From Sulfurirhabdus autotrophica (GTDB lineage: Bacteria > Pseudomonadota > Gammaproteobacteria > Burkholderiales > SMCO01), in contig NZ_SMCO01000005.1 in the NCBI RefSeq assembly GCF_004346685.1, forward strand, positions 62,001-126,000: DNA of 64,000 bases. Reading direction: 5' to 3'. This document shows positions 27,859 to 62,136 of the stretch, in pieces. The translations under genes were made by a program, and so were the position numbers. The notes beneath the pieces are model-generated. The model was given only the letters and a program-made list of their open reading frames with translations, did no database searches and had not been told where the DNA came from. Numbering within the stretch: position 1 is the stretch's first letter; every line of letters begins with the position of its first letter.

Positions 27859-30800
27859 CTAGTTTTCATGGTGCAAGGACAATTCATTGAGTTTACCTGA
27901 AACGGAAAAATGCGCTTTAACCAAGGTTGAAGAAGAGCGCAATTCAGCATTGATTCGGCCGGAGACTTGTTTATCCTCAACCAAATCAGCATATCCATTC
28001 GCGTTCATCAAGCCAGCTTCCATTTTCAACTGTTTATACTGATAACGATCCTTCATAAGCGTAAATTTGCCAGACAGTTTTTCAAAATTTGTCTGCCCGC
28101 CACCACTGATATCATTTTTAGGGGACTGTATCCCCCCCACAAGATTAAAATTACCCAAAACACCTCTCTCAATAGTGAAATCACCTTTTAATTGGGGCGC
28201 TTCAAACAACTTTGCAAGCTCATTATTTTGCATGGAATAATCCGCATTGACACTCAATTTTCCCTGAAGAGATATTTCACGGGTAAACAAAGTGGCCAGC
28301 GGGGCCAAATCAAGCCCTGATGCACTGTAATCACCAGAAAAATGCCAGATCTTCCCCCATTCCAGCTTCGCATTACCTTTTGCGGATCCACCATATAAGC
28401 GTGCATCAATTTCTGTTACTTGCAACGTATTATTTGTTGCAACCGCCTTTCCGCTCACATCATTAAACATAAACGCAGGCCCAAAAGGTAACTGCCAGTT
28501 TTTTCCTGAAAAATCGATATCATAGGTTTCGTCATGAGCCAGAATATTCCCGGAAAATTTAGCATCTGCGCTTTTAACAAATGCCCCTTGCAACATCCCG
28601 GTTTTTGGGTTTAATTTTATTTCTGCATCGAACAGAGGCAATTTGAAATCTCTGACACCAATATTTACCCCTTTGAGACTGACTCGATTGACCGGTATTG
28701 AAAGCTGATTTTCTATTTTTAGCCAATGCGACACGCGTCCCAGAGCATCCTGATCAAATGTCAGAGATTCTCCTTCAATTAGTTTGATGACTTTCCTGTC
28801 TTCAAACAGCGATAACATATCCGGCATGACCCGGATAGTACCAATTTTCACATCACGCATGGCACCAACTGAAACACCCTCAAACTTCAAGTGCGGAGAA
28901 GGCCAGAGCGATGCGCGAATGGTTGAAATGGAAACAGGTTCATGCACCCGGTCAGATACCATTTGTTCAAAAGCAGGCGAGTAGAAATTTAGCGGAACCA
29001 AATGTAACAGCACCAGAACAAGCAGAATCAACCCAATTGCTGTTCCGAGTACATATTTCACGCCCGTAACAAATTGCTTTAGCAATTTAGCCGGTGAAAC
29101 AAAATTTTTGCTTTTTTTCCCTTTTGCTTCCTTGTTTTTAAAATCTGCCTGAGCTTTCGCCCGGGCCTCAGCCTGCAGCCTTTCCTCTGCATCAATATCC
29201 TTTTCTAGTTTTAAACTCGCTTCCGCCTGCAACCTCGCTTCAGACTCACTTCGTGCCAGCAACTCAGCTTCTTCGCGCGCTTCCCTTTCAGCCTCCGCTT
29301 TTGCATGCGCAACCACGTTTGCTGCTTCGATAGCCTTTGCTTCTGCTTCAGCTTTTATTCTTTCTGCTTCTTGAGCTTTAGCGCCTGCCTCAGCATCTCT
29401 CAATGCTTTAGCTTCCTCTTCTGCCCTCTCTAATGCTTTCTCCGCTTCCTGAGCATGCATTTCAGCGGCTTCACGTTCTTCCTGTTCAGCTTCTACAATT
29501 GCATTTCTCTCAGCCTCTTCCCTTGCTTTGGCTTCAGCTGCAACCCTTGCTGCTGCTTCTACTTGTGCAAACTCTTCCGCTTGTTTTCGTGCAATTTCTT
29601 CAGCTTCAACTTTTGCCTGTATTTCTGCTTCAGCCCGTGCCAGTGCTTCTGCTGCCTCTCTGGCACGCACCTCGGCTGCTTCTTGCGCTTTCCTTTCTGC
29701 TTCTACCCTCTCTTGCTCTTCAGCTTCTTTTCGGGCTTTCTCTTCCGCCTCAGCTTTAGCTTGCCTTTCTGCTTCTTCACGCGCTAACCGCTCAGCTTCC
29801 AGCCTTGCTTTTTCTTCTGCTTCAGCCTGTGCTTTGACTTCTGCTGCTTGCCTGGCAAGTTCCTCTGCCTGCGCGCGTTCATCAGCTTCCTTCCGCGCCT
29901 TTTCTTCAGCCTCAGCTTTAGCTTGCCTTTCTGCTTCTTCACGCGCTAACCGCTCAGCTTCCAGCCTTGCTTTTTCTTCTGCTTCAGCCTGTGCTTTAGC
30001 TTCTGCTGCTTGCCTGGCAAGTTCTTCTGCCCGTGCACGTTCTTCAGCTTCCATCCGGGCTTTTTCTTCCGCCGCAGCTTTAGCTTGTCTTTCGGTTTCA
30101 TCTCGCGCTAACCGCTCAGCCTCCAGCCTTGCTTTTTCATCTGCCTCAGCCTTTGCTTTGGCTTCAGCTGCTTTTCTAGCCATTTCTTCTGCCAGCGCAC
30201 GTTCCTCAGCTTCCTTCCTGGCTTTTTCTTCCGCCGCAGCTTTAGCTTGTCTTTCGGTTTCATCTCGCGCTAACCGCTCAGCCTCCAGCCTTGCTTTTTC
30301 ATCTGCCTCAGCCTTTGCTTTGGCTTCAGCTGCTTTTCTAGCCATTTCTTCTGCCAGCGCACGTTCCTCAGCTTCTTTCCGCGCCTTTTCTTCTGCCTCA
30401 GCTTTAGCTTGCCTTTCTGCTTCCGCTATAGCTATGGCTTCAGCAGCTTCTTTGGCACGTTGTTCAGCAGCTTCCTGGGCTTTTCTTTCTGCCTCAACTC
30501 TCGCTTTTTCTTCGGCTTTAAGTTTAGCTTGCCTTTCAGCCTCAGCCTTTGCTATTGCTTCAGCTAACTCTCGAGCATGCTGCTCAGCAATTTCCCTTTC
30601 TTTTTGCTCAGCGGCTTCTTTTCTGGCTTTCTCTTGAGCTTCTGCCAGGGCTTTTGCTTCAGCCTCCTCTCTAGCTCTAGCCTCTAATCGTTTAGAAAGC
30701 CTGAGTTCTGCCATTTTTTGGTCTTCTTCTTCCTCCTGGGCTTTCTGTTCAGCTTCTGCTTTTGCAATTGCTTCTTCTCTGGCTTTTCTTTCAAACACTT

Positions 30801-31497
30801 CTTTTACTTTTGCTCTTGCCCTGGCCTCTGCCATTGCACGCTTATCAAATTCCTGCCTTACTTTTTCTGCTGCTTCGGCCTTCGCTTTATTTTCCTTTTC
30901 TGTTTGAGCTTGTGCCAGCAACTTTACCCGAATCGCTGCTTCTTCCCGCGCTTTCGCATCAGCCTCTGCTTTTGCTTTTATTTCCCTCTCATTCTGAGCT
31001 CGTGCTTCAGCCTCTGCTTTGCTCCTTCTTTCCAATTCCCCTTTTATTACTGCCTCAGATTCCTTAAGCGCTCTATTGCTCTCTGCAAGTTTGACTTCGC
31101 TTTCCAATTCAGCGGTCAACTCAGACAATTCACTTTCCCAAGCACGCTTATCATCCAGCAGTTTATTTCGTTGTCCCACGGCTGCCTGAGCATCTAAAAA
31201 CGCCTGAGTATTTGCCTCTGAAACCATAATAGTGGCAGATGAGCCAAAGTCATTTCCAAATTGGGTGAGTTGCTCTCGGACTAATATTTTAATAAATTTT
31301 TCTGCAAGTAATGAATTCAATGCGTTATTCAGTTTTACTTCTGATAACTTTTCGGAACGGGCTAATATTTCAGCTACTGACGTTTTTCCATCCACCAGCT
31401 GCAATACACGCACGAGATCTCGATGAAGATGTCTGGATTTACCAGTCAGTTCCATCACTCCTTTTGCGGTTTTAGCGTAAATCGTTGTCCAGTCCAT
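27859..31497 (-). CDS. 1212-residue protein: winged-helix-like N-terminus, long charged helix, membrane anchor, AsmA-like C-terminus
   Basis: Residues 1-95 form a small helical domain (VMELTGKSRHLHRDLVRVLQ, LVDGKTSVAEILARSEKL) like the helix-turn-helix of regulators with variable output. Residues about 110-790 are almost only Ala, Glu, Lys, Arg and Gln and must form a very long single helix or coiled coil. A membrane helix lies near 805-830, and the last ~380 residues resemble the AsmA family (VHEPVSISTIRASLWPSPHL; SGKAVATNNTLQVTEIDARLYGGSAKG). The long part is predicted in the cytoplasm and the AsmA part in the periplasm. The central DNA holds 162-bp repeats. Function unknown; its neighbour is the Ser/Thr kinase fusion. 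Confidence 0.85.
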   Translation of the reverse strand: MDWTTIYAKTAKGVMELTGKSRHLHRDLVRVLQLVDGKTSVAEILARSEKLSEVKLNNALNSLLAEKFIKILVREQLTQFGNDFGSSATIMVSEANTQAFLDAQAAVGQRNKLLDDKRAWESELSELTAELESEVKLAESNRALKESEAVIKGELERRSKAEAEARAQNEREIKAKAEADAKAREEAAIRVKLLAQAQTEKENKAKAEAAEKVRQEFDKRAMAEARARAKVKEVFERKAREEAIAKAEAEQKAQEEEEDQKMAELRLSKRLEARAREEAEAKALAEAQEKARKEAAEQKEREIAEQHARELAEAIAKAEAERQAKLKAEEKARVEAERKAQEAAEQRAKEAAEAIAIAEAERQAKAEAEEKARKEAEERALAEEMARKAAEAKAKAEADEKARLEAERLARDETERQAKAAAEEKARKEAEERALAEEMARKAAEAKAKAEADEKARLEAERLARDETERQAKAAAEEKARMEAEERARAEELARQAAEAKAQAEAEEKARLEAERLAREEAERQAKAEAEEKARKEADERAQAEELARQAAEVKAQAEAEEKARLEAERLAREEAERQAKAEAEEKARKEAEEQERVEAERKAQEAAEVRAREAAEALARAEAEIQAKVEAEEIARKQAEEFAQVEAAARVAAEAKAREEAERNAIVEAEQEEREAAEMHAQEAEKALERAEEEAKALRDAEAGAKAQEAERIKAEAEAKAIEAANVVAHAKAEAEREAREEAELLARSESEARLQAEASLKLEKDIDAEERLQAEARAKAQADFKNKEAKGKKSKNFVSPAKLLKQFVTGVKYVLGTAIGLILLVLVLLHLVPLNFYSPAFEQMVSDRVHEPVSISTIRASLWPSPHLKFEGVSVGAMRDVKIGTIRVMPDMLSLFEDRKVIKLIEGESLTFDQDALGRVSHWLKIENQLSIPVNRVSLKGVNIGVRDFKLPLFDAEIKLNPKTGMLQGAFVKSADAKFSGNILAHDETYDIDFSGKNWQLPFGPAFMFNDVSGKAVATNNTLQVTEIDARLYGGSAKGNAKLEWGKIWHFSGDYSASGLDLAPLATLFTREISLQGKLSVNADYSMQNNELAKLFEAPQLKGDFTIERGVLGNFNLVGGIQSPKNDISGGGQTNFEKLSGKFTLMKDRYQYKQLKMEAGLMNANGYADLVEDKQVSGRINAELRSSSTLVKAHFSVSGKLNELSLHHEN
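29763..30410 (-). repeat. Four tandem 162-bp repeat units inside the repeat-AsmA gene
   Basis: Units begin at 29763, 29925, 30087 and 30249, exactly 162 bp apart (54 codons), and the pattern continues in degraded form on both sides. Each encodes a 54-residue block with the motif AERLARxExERQAKAxAEEK. The units at 30087 and 30249 are identical over roughly the first 130 bases, a recent duplication, while the others differ at many third positions. 54 residues equal 15 turns of a plain alpha helix. Confidence 0.92.
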
Positions 31498-35483: not shown

Positions 35484-35516
35484 CCAGGAGGCGGAAACAA
35501 AAAACCCGCCTCCTGG
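35484..35516. repeat. 11-bp perfect inverted repeat overlapping the leader terminator
   Basis: CCAGGAGGCGG and CCGCCTCCTGG are separated by 11 bases. The second copy shares bases with the 3' half of the terminator stem at 35503-35524, so the two structures exclude each other. The repeat ends 27 bases before the start codon of the SnoaL-kinase gene on the minus strand. Confidence 0.6.
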
Positions 35517-35524
35517 GGCGGGTT
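35499..35524 (-). terminator. Intrinsic terminator in the leader of the SnoaL-kinase gene (attenuator candidate)
   Basis: On the minus strand AACCCGCC pairs perfectly with GGCGGGTT around a 6-base loop, followed by a run of Ts (TTTTTT). It lies between the promoter at 35623-35651 and the gene starting at 35456, so transcription must read through it. Confidence 0.75.
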
Positions 35525-35547
35525 GCTTAGCTAAATCAAGACGCAAA

Positions 35548-35613
35548 TTAACCCACCATTCTCCGAAGAATGGTGATAATAATCAGCGAGTGAGAAAAAT
35601 AGTTGCTAAACAT
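35548..35613 (-). CDS. Possible 21-residue leader peptide with an Ile/Thr run
   Basis: A 22-codon ORF starts at ATG 35613, contains the run LIIITI (codons CTG ATT ATT ATC ACC ATT) and stops with TAA 24 bases before the terminator stem. The run overlaps the 5' arm of the hairpin at 35554-35575, the arrangement of amino-acid attenuators. Against it: no Shine-Dalgarno site, and the ATG would lie about 5 bases from the predicted transcript start, so it would be nearly leaderless. Confidence 0.35.
   Translation of the reverse strand: MFSNYFSHSLIIITILRRMVG
35554..35575 (-). promoter_or_regulatory. Perfect 9-bp hairpin in the leader
   Basis: CACCATTCT and AGAATGGTG flank the tetraloop TCGG (minus strand). 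It sits 29 bases before the terminator stem and overlaps the 3' half of the short leader ORF, so it would be the pause hairpin of an attenuator. Confidence 0.5.
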
Positions 35614-35622
35614 GATGTTTAA

Positions 35623-35651
35623 ATTATGCTTTCGAAATGTAAATGAGTCAA
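35623..35651 (-). promoter_or_regulatory. Strong sigma-70 promoter candidate
   Basis: TTGACT, 17-base spacer, CATAAT on the minus strand (5/6 at each hexamer). It faces the leader and the SnoaL-kinase gene, with the start of transcription expected near 35616. Confidence 0.65.
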
Positions 35652-61791: not shown

Positions 61792-62136
61792 TTCTGTCCC
61801 CTATCTCTCGTAGTTATATATATAAAATTCACACAGCATACTTGCTGATGCCTACACATTGAAGGGTTTTAAATGTTTTGTAAATAGTCCGAAAATACCC
61901 AATATTAGCGTTACATCATATTGATTTATAGAGAAAATAAGACAAAAATGTATACATATCCAATCAAAGGTATTGAATTCAAATTTTTTCCTTTTACAAC
62001 AATTATGTAAACAATTTTACGACGGAAGAGGCGTGCCAATACAACAAATTCCAATTCATTACACTCTGGATCAACTATAATTTTAATGCCATTAAATTAG
62101 CCATTCTATTGCGTTTACATACTTCAGAGGGCACAC
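61792..62136. other. 345-base divergent intergenic region
   Basis: AT-rich, between the DsrE-family gene and acyP. A TATATATATA stretch stands about 20 bases before the DsrE ribosome binding site and may include its -10. No ORF, hairpin or RNA gene was found. Confidence 0.5.

Follow-up and report, generated by a model that had tools for sequence, protein, structure and literature searches.

The leader in front of a gene that fuses a SnoaL domain to a kinase domain in Sulfurirhabdus autotrophica is very probably an attenuator that acts in cis, works through the ribosome and senses charged tRNA-Ile. In the best reading, a shortage of isoleucine, or of its charged tRNA, turns the gene on, and the Rfam family that the leader matches, P9 (RF00624), would then be an isoleucine attenuator. 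The argument is drawn from sequence: an ordered set of segments, an isoleucine run, co-variation of three helices (1:2, 4:5 and 5:6), and related leaders found before ilvA. The window is the whole stretch of 64,000 nucleotides analysed (positions 62,001 to 126,000 of contig NZ_SMCO01000005.1), and its numbering is used throughout; the leader and its gene lie on the reverse strand.

The promoter (35651-35623) consists of TTGACT (35651-35646) and CATAAT (35628-35623) separated by 17 nucleotides, matching the consensus at 10 of 12 positions. Nine nucleotides separate the -10 box from a near-leaderless ORF of 21 residues, MFSNYFSHSLIIITILRRMVG, which runs from an ATG at 35613 to a TAA at 35548 and has no Shine-Dalgarno sequence. 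Its codons 11, 12, 13 and 15 specify isoleucine; the control codons I-I-I-T-I (ATT ATT ATC ACC ATT, 35583-35569) overlap segment 1 (CACCATTCT, 35575-35567), the 5' arm of a perfect 9-bp hairpin completed by AGAATGGTG (35562-35554). This second arm, together with an antiterminator arm, GGTGGGTT (35557-35550), makes up segment 2 (35562-35550). Segment 3 (AACCCGCC, 35524-35517) pairs with GGCGGGTT (35510-35503) around a loop of 6 in an 8-bp intrinsic terminator ahead of the gene, and the latter arm with the U-tract forms segment 4 (35510-35499). Segment 3 can also pair with the antiterminator arm of segment 2, at 8 of 8 positions with one G-U. Segment 5 (CCGCCTCCTGG, 35494-35484) pairs over 11 bp with CCAGGAGGCGG (35516-35506), which covers the terminator loop and part of segment 4; alternatively, its portion 35490-35484 forms 7 bp with segment 6, CTAGGAG (35469-35463), the Shine-Dalgarno region of the controlled gene. 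That gene (35456-34584) encodes 290 residues, a YybH-like SnoaL domain followed by an AAA_33 P-loop kinase. Helices 1:2, 2:3 and 3:4 are mutually exclusive in the window, by pairing as well as by folding, and the anatomy so predicted is that of the classic ribosome-mediated attenuator.

The promoter, the 21-residue ORF with its LIIITI run, the hairpin over this run (35575-35554) and the terminator with U-tract (35524-35499) had all been named in the original prediction, and all are present. The 11-bp inverted repeat that it took to compete with the terminator is present too and overlaps the terminator 3' arm, but this repeat is the later helix 4:5; the decisive antiterminator would be 2:3, which the prediction had not named.

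Could such an arrangement arise by chance? Bare consensus matches are not enriched in the region, with 6 promoter-like sequences against 8.9 expected and 6 terminator-like sequences against 4.6. The 159-nt transcript folds with an energy 5.0 standard deviations below that of dinucleotide shuffles, none of 200 being equally good. That the leader is no accident is best shown by homology. P9, listed by Rfam as 'Pseudomonas sRNA P9' and reportedly originating from one earlier paper, is the sole family matched at curated thresholds in the 64-kb window (35586-35501; 50.5 bits against a gathering score of 43, E 8.5e-08 for the whole window). A covariance model, R1, built from three loci of other genomes (L002, L003 and L004) with the window excluded, scores the leader at 65.1 bits (E 2.2e-13). 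All three source loci share promoter, ORF, hairpin and terminator with the window, ahead of a SnoaL gene in L002 and L003 and of a P-loop kinase gene in L004. Two other families were rejected for the window on their scores, Thr_leader (RF00506, 20.8 bits against a cut-off of 55) and Trp_leader (RF00513, 20.6 bits against 41). Elsewhere in the window, an ORF of 1212 residues (27859-31497) contains a very long Ala/Glu/Lys-rich repeat stretch.

P9 occurs once in the window's own genome, which was the only one with a match among the 60 genomes of a relatives sample. Within the class it exceeds the cut-off in 3 of 274 genomes and reaches E values up to 0.001 in 15 of 274; the weak matches L005-L017 are known by score alone. 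R1 matches 10 of 369 class genomes. We accepted as further R1-found members L022 (before SnoaL) and L028 (before GNAT, and the second leader in the genome of L004), and rejected the weak matches L023-L027, whose sequences look like ordinary terminators or, in L027, coding sequence. The P9 cut-off is reached by 12 of 20 loci scanned with Rfam, the P. aeruginosa leader scoring 89.8 bits, and is missed by L187, L189, L048, L044, L149, L028, L205 and L200. At a permissive threshold, applied to 15 loci, L187, L199, L200, L205 and L004 give P9 matches under the cut-off, L028 is fitted better by Trp_leader than by P9 (36.8 bits, also under the cut-off), and L189 and L149 have no Rfam match. R1 misses L187, L189, L199, L200 and L149, which were assigned to the family by anatomy, not score. 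These five leaders (Azotobacter, Pantoea and Phytobacter among them) have no U-tract and keep helix 3:4 and segment 5, as if their control were translational only.

The original prediction had turned to relatives for support, in the form of a conserved leader ORF with conserved codons, co-varying stems, alternative folds and a terminator kept in front of the same gene. The last is found in L106 (Sideroxydans), where the same SnoaL-AAA_33 fusion, 83% identical, follows the same leader with its terminator. For a wider view, species genomes were searched with a pattern made of the terminator and the segment 5 arm, from which the leader ORF was left out altogether, and at least 119 loci were found, three of those listed being the source loci of R1; viral contigs searched with the terminator pattern gave zero matches. 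A leader ORF of 16-30 residues with an isoleucine run accompanies 109 of the 119 loci listed (5 are cut off upstream and 5 lack one), and at least three isoleucines within 6 codons are found in 104 of the 114 that have enough upstream sequence, among the matches listed. The first 80 loci listed include 73 with a 16-30-codon ORF having at least two isoleucines in 6 codons (68 have at least three), 4 cut off upstream and 3 without a leader; by the same rule, the other 39 (L109-L147) comprise 36 with a leader, all with at least three isoleucines, 2 without and 1 cut off.

In 67 of the 73 leaders from the first 80 loci listed, 6-9 nt separate the best -10 box from the start codon, and in 69 the best-scoring -35 box is TTGACN. 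We also assembled 38 curated members, hand-picked from all classes with close duplicates removed by hand, most of them found by a pattern that required a U-tract. Their Shine-Dalgarno scores are low at the leader start (mean 2.6 of 6, 2/38 reaching 5) and high at the following gene (mean 4.8, 28/38 reaching 5). These low leader scores, together with the short distance from the -10 box, indicate that the leader ORF is usually near-leaderless. The missing Shine-Dalgarno sequence and near-leaderless start of the window ORF, correctly described at the outset, were then regarded as weak points; since such starts are usual in the family, they are not.

Is isoleucine the signal? In the curated members, isoleucine accounts for 21.5% of the leader residues that follow the start, threonine for 11.4%. 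At least two isoleucines in 6 codons are found in 38/38 members, and at least three in 35/38 in frame versus 1/38 in each of the other frames; L028 and L101 have merely two. The run sits in segment 1, so placed that a ribosome stalling on it would release segment 2, and in relatives the same type of leader stands ahead of threonine deaminase (ilvA), the first enzyme of isoleucine synthesis. The coupling to isoleucine/threonine supply or to ribosome stalling that had been suggested thus gains support from the isoleucine codons, the co-varying stems and the ilvA leaders, except that, of the two amino acids, isoleucine is the better conserved as the probable signal. A threonine attenuator, like that of the enterobacterial thr operon, is highly improbable. 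Threonine is the substrate of IlvA, has one codon in the window run and its share of leader residues is the one given above, but the Thr_leader score falls far short and several members have no threonine in the run (RIIIIP, QIILAIH, SIIRILH), while every curated member has at least two isoleucines in 6 codons.

Segments 2 and 3 pair at 6-8 of 8 positions in 38/38 curated members (in L049, the automatic choice of arms missed a conserved GGTGGG arm). The search pattern itself set segments 3 and 4, and co-variation covers the other helices, 1:2, 4:5 and 5:6. When cognate arms were compared with permuted ones in the 38 members, a test from which kinship among members is not fully removed, z was -4.3 for 1:2, -4.5 for 4:5 and -4.1 for 5:6 (0/2000 each). 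With 24 members, hand-thinned of close relatives, the values were -4.4 for 1:2 and -5.8 for 4:5 (0/5000 each), and -3.8 for 5:6 with overlapping bases removed (0/5000); excluding ilvA members, 5:6 gave -3.5 (2/5000). Whole arms of 4:5 are replaced in Pantoea (CCGGTAAGG/CCTTACCGG), Caballeronia (GCCCAGAAGG/CTTTCTGGGC), Rhizobium (GCGAG/CTCGC) and L022 (CCGCAA/TTGCGG).

Folding the window RNA yields alternatives. Once segment 1 is removed, the minimum-energy fold combines 2:3 (8 bp) with 4:5 (12 pairs) and leaves the Shine-Dalgarno sequence 0.83 free; with 3:4 forced, segment 5 covers the Shine-Dalgarno sequence, which is then 0.17 free. In 28/38 members, including L106, the closest relative, RNA that starts at segment 2 folds at equilibrium into 3:4 rather than 2:3, so that the switch must be kinetic there, with 2:3 forming first. 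Averaged over the 38 members, the Shine-Dalgarno sequence is 0.37 free with 2:3 taken as formed versus 0.24 with 3:4. It is freer with 2:3 in 32/38 members, by more than 0.2 in 10, and in none is it lower by more than 0.2; helix 4:5 has at least 6 pairs in 24/38, and in L106 the two states do not differ (0.21 versus 0.22). These values suggest that 5:6 acts as a second, translational lock, clear in the window and with mixed support across the family. As exposure differs in the window and some members only, we propose the lock for those and not for all. Control might instead be purely translational, with a weak terminator and a switch that consists of segment 5 covering the Shine-Dalgarno sequence, as the co-variation of 5:6 and the members devoid of a U-tract could suggest. 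We consider this quite unlikely, because terminator and U-tract are intact in the window and in the majority of the 38 curated members (the pattern behind most of them required a U-tract) and cover of the Shine-Dalgarno sequence is nearly equal between states in most members.

Returning to attenuation by charged tRNA-Ile, the switch could work as follows. RNA polymerase would start at or just upstream of the leader ATG. With ample Ile-tRNA, the ribosome would reach the stop codon and cover segment 2, 3:4 would form and transcription would terminate about 115 nt from the start. With scarce Ile-tRNA, the ribosome would stall on ATT ATT ATC (ACC) ATT in segment 1, allowing the 2:3 antiterminator to form and polymerase to proceed into the SnoaL-kinase gene; segment 4, freed by 2:3, would pair with segment 5. 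If the ribosome were absent, 1:2 and 3:4 would form and transcription would end. Readthrough transcripts with 3:4 could pair segment 5 with the Shine-Dalgarno sequence, the possible second lock. Leader translation, ribosome stalling, the isoleucine response and the order of folding are what we infer here.

The terminated product, an RNA of about 115 nt, might also be an independent trans-acting sRNA, as the Rfam name of P9 and its type 'Gene' imply, the following gene being incidental; a role in trans is reported, in the sections consulted of PMC7298713, for the leader peptide peTrpL. This is very unlikely for P9, since a same-strand ORF lies shortly downstream in nearly all of 86 loci scanned (none was detected automatically for L043, L045 and L087), and segment 5 lies past the terminator and co-varies with segment 4 and with the Shine-Dalgarno region of the gene, which would make no sense in a released sRNA.

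The genes behind related leaders are ilvA, SnoaL-ilvA, SnoaL, SnoaL with AAA_33, AAA_33 kinase, a second P-loop kinase and GNAT. An ilvA-like N-terminus follows the leader in most Pseudomonas, Paraburkholderia and Cupriavidus loci among the matches listed, and at least 38 ilvA-like ORFs form a single blastp cluster. Of four examples searched with Pfam, all have the PALP domain (L069, L191, L041 and L056), and the threonine dehydratase regulatory domain is present in the first two and absent from the last two. In Pseudomonas mandelii (L046, near 1816-1990), an insert of about 100 bases with a palindromic repeat lies between the leader terminator and ilvA. On the P. aeruginosa plasmid pZYPA1927, P9 (at the 89.8 bits already mentioned) stands before a SnoaL gene, annotated as SgcJ/EcaC family, that overlaps an ilvA annotated as threonine ammonia-lyase; the SnoaL protein is 50% identical to the SnoaL part of the window protein (H35). 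We take the P. aeruginosa SnoaL-ilvA pair behind P9 to be PA1325-PA1326. In the portions at hand of two papers, PA1325 and PA1326 ilvA2 are tabulated with similar values (PMC5150637) and PA1326 is called an IlvA paralogue (PMC9239102). Phages searched for the P. aeruginosa SnoaL protein gave zero matches. The window gene itself, SnoaL-AAA_33, is not an isoleucine-synthesis gene, ilvA being found behind relatives' leaders instead, and the ilvA of the window genome has no such leader; both points count against the isoleucine reading.

Azotobacter carries the unfused form of the window gene, SnoaL and AAA_33 following the leader as two overlapping genes, and plasmids of Rhizobium, Pantoea, Phytobacter, Caballeronia and Burkholderia have the leader before SnoaL or AAA_33 alone. 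Among plasmid homologues, 107 records matched, 25 were examined and 9 of these have the leader by eye. In Rhizobium brockwellii (L185, 814-1503), a gene annotated 'ATP-binding protein' ends at 1503, inside the SnoaL leader, whose P9 match begins at 1500. The second P-loop kinase stands behind the leader in at least 13 loci, mostly from marine genera, and the leader peptide ends in RIIIIP in 7 of the 13 listed. Also counting against that reading, most homologues of the controlled genes that were inspected lack the leader: besides the 9 of 25 on plasmids, it accompanies just 5 of 24 SnoaL/kinase homologues in the 369 class genomes and just 1 of 12 P-loop kinase homologues in class genomes. Kinase loci share no neighbours except between near-duplicate loci, among the 45 largest protein clusters listed, and no T-box or leader was seen by eye before YybH-like genes in one Enterococcus, one Weissella and one Priestia homologue. 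A SnoaL-cysM operon in a Klebsiella plasmid was rejected, the genes being convergent. A different shared element lies upstream of the AAA_33 kinase homologue in L201, L202 and L204 (Haematobacter, Rhizobium and Tistrella): by eye, a short ORF ending in RI..PA* and then a CCCGGCC/GGCCGGG hairpin. The Rhizobium copy of this element has a blast match in Methylobacterium (81% over about 113 nt). Leaderless AAA_33 homologues in L160, L162, L167 and L170 lie, again by eye, behind integron attC-like sequences, so that the kinase may travel as gene cassettes.

What might these proteins do? Residues 6-131 of the window protein match B. subtilis YybH (PDB 2gxf, E 1.9e-44; Foldseek rank 1) and residues 137-279 match AAA_33; the SgcJ/EcaC model TIGR02246 scores 27.7 bits, under its cut-off of 33.95. 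With a structure model of mean pLDDT 78, the top kinases in the fold search were polynucleotide kinases and PFKFB3, APS kinase and O-phosphoseryl-tRNA(Sec) kinase ranking below them. The second P-loop kinase (model pLDDT 75) resembles shikimate and adenylate kinases. Homoserine kinase was rejected as the identity of AAA_33 (NCBIfam NF040667, 17 bits against a cut-off of 197) and kept as a hint; that model is the Desulfovibrio homoserine kinase family, in the part of PMC5764234 available to us. Hints to the Thr-Ile route come from this weak match and the SnoaL-ilvA operon alone. As candidate reasons for placing kinases, SnoaL and GNAT under isoleucine control, we consider support of the pathway or defence against inhibitors of Ile-tRNA synthetase.

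Detoxification-type genes behind the leader (kinases, GNAT, SnoaL) could also suit a general sensor of ribosome stalling, in which any elongation inhibitor, such as chloramphenicol or a macrolide, induces a resistance-like gene and the isoleucine run is a legacy of an ilvA leader. Drug-responsive leaders of the stalling type are known, some kinase homologues lie beside the attC-like sites, and the two-isoleucine leaders of L028 and L101 weaken the argument from the run. Nevertheless, this explanation seems unlikely: isoleucine runs are kept or longer (IIIIP, IIIIIP, IIIII) before many non-ilvA genes despite diverged surroundings, whereas a freely inherited run would be expected to drift.

On the preferred reading, isoleucine attenuation, we tentatively raise a broader possibility, namely that this leader, as a portable switch for isoleucine starvation with two locks (2:3/3:4 on transcription, 4:5/5:6 on translation), has spread among unrelated stand-alone genes (AAA_33, P-loop kinase, SnoaL, GNAT) in alpha-, beta- and gammaproteobacteria. 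These genes might answer a failure of Ile-tRNA charging, either as an inducible defence, for instance against inhibitors of the mupirocin/thiomarinol kind, or by a Thr-to-Ile bypass with AAA_33 as a homoserine- or threonine-type kinase. Should the genes indeed respond to inhibitors of Ile-tRNA synthetase, a natural sensor of this class of drugs would be at hand in the leader. P9, listed only as a Pseudomonas sRNA, gains a testable function, the uncharacterised pair of SnoaL and AAA_33 kinase domains would be linked to isoleucine metabolism, and a single type of amino-acid attenuator is found before unrelated genes. Six alternating segments ending at the Shine-Dalgarno sequence would be an unusual coupling of transcription and translation.

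How does this leader compare with known systems? Ribosome-mediated amino-acid attenuators are well known from the ilvGMEDA, thrABC, trp and his leaders. Like these, the window leader has a leader peptide with control codons and the alternatives 1:2, 2:3 and 3:4; unlike them, its ORF is near-leaderless, segments 5 and 6 are added and reach the Shine-Dalgarno sequence, and the controlled gene is not known to make an amino acid. It shares with P9 the hairpin, the Ile-rich codons, the stop region and the terminator; Rfam lists a small RNA gene, whereas we read it as a leader, standing before SnoaL-ilvA, ilvA or kinase genes. Thr_leader and Trp_leader have the same general layout and give weak overlapping matches, but other codons and scores far under the cut-offs. 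The S. meliloti peptide peTrpL, as presented in the same sections of PMC7298713, is likewise an attenuator leader peptide tied to drug resistance genes, but acts in trans, while the window leader is read as cis-acting. The protein domains are like those of YybH (2gxf) and of AAA_33/PNK-like kinases, from which the window gene differs by its fusion and its isoleucine leader. We recognised no published description of this leader in the portions of the literature searched, although older comparative work on attenuators may already mention one for ilvA in Pseudomonas; the main text of PMC2965389 contains none of the terms ilvA, threonine and isoleucine. The switch is of a known kind; as far as these searches show, the novelty lies in equating P9 with it, in the unrelated genes that it appears to control and in segments 5 and 6.
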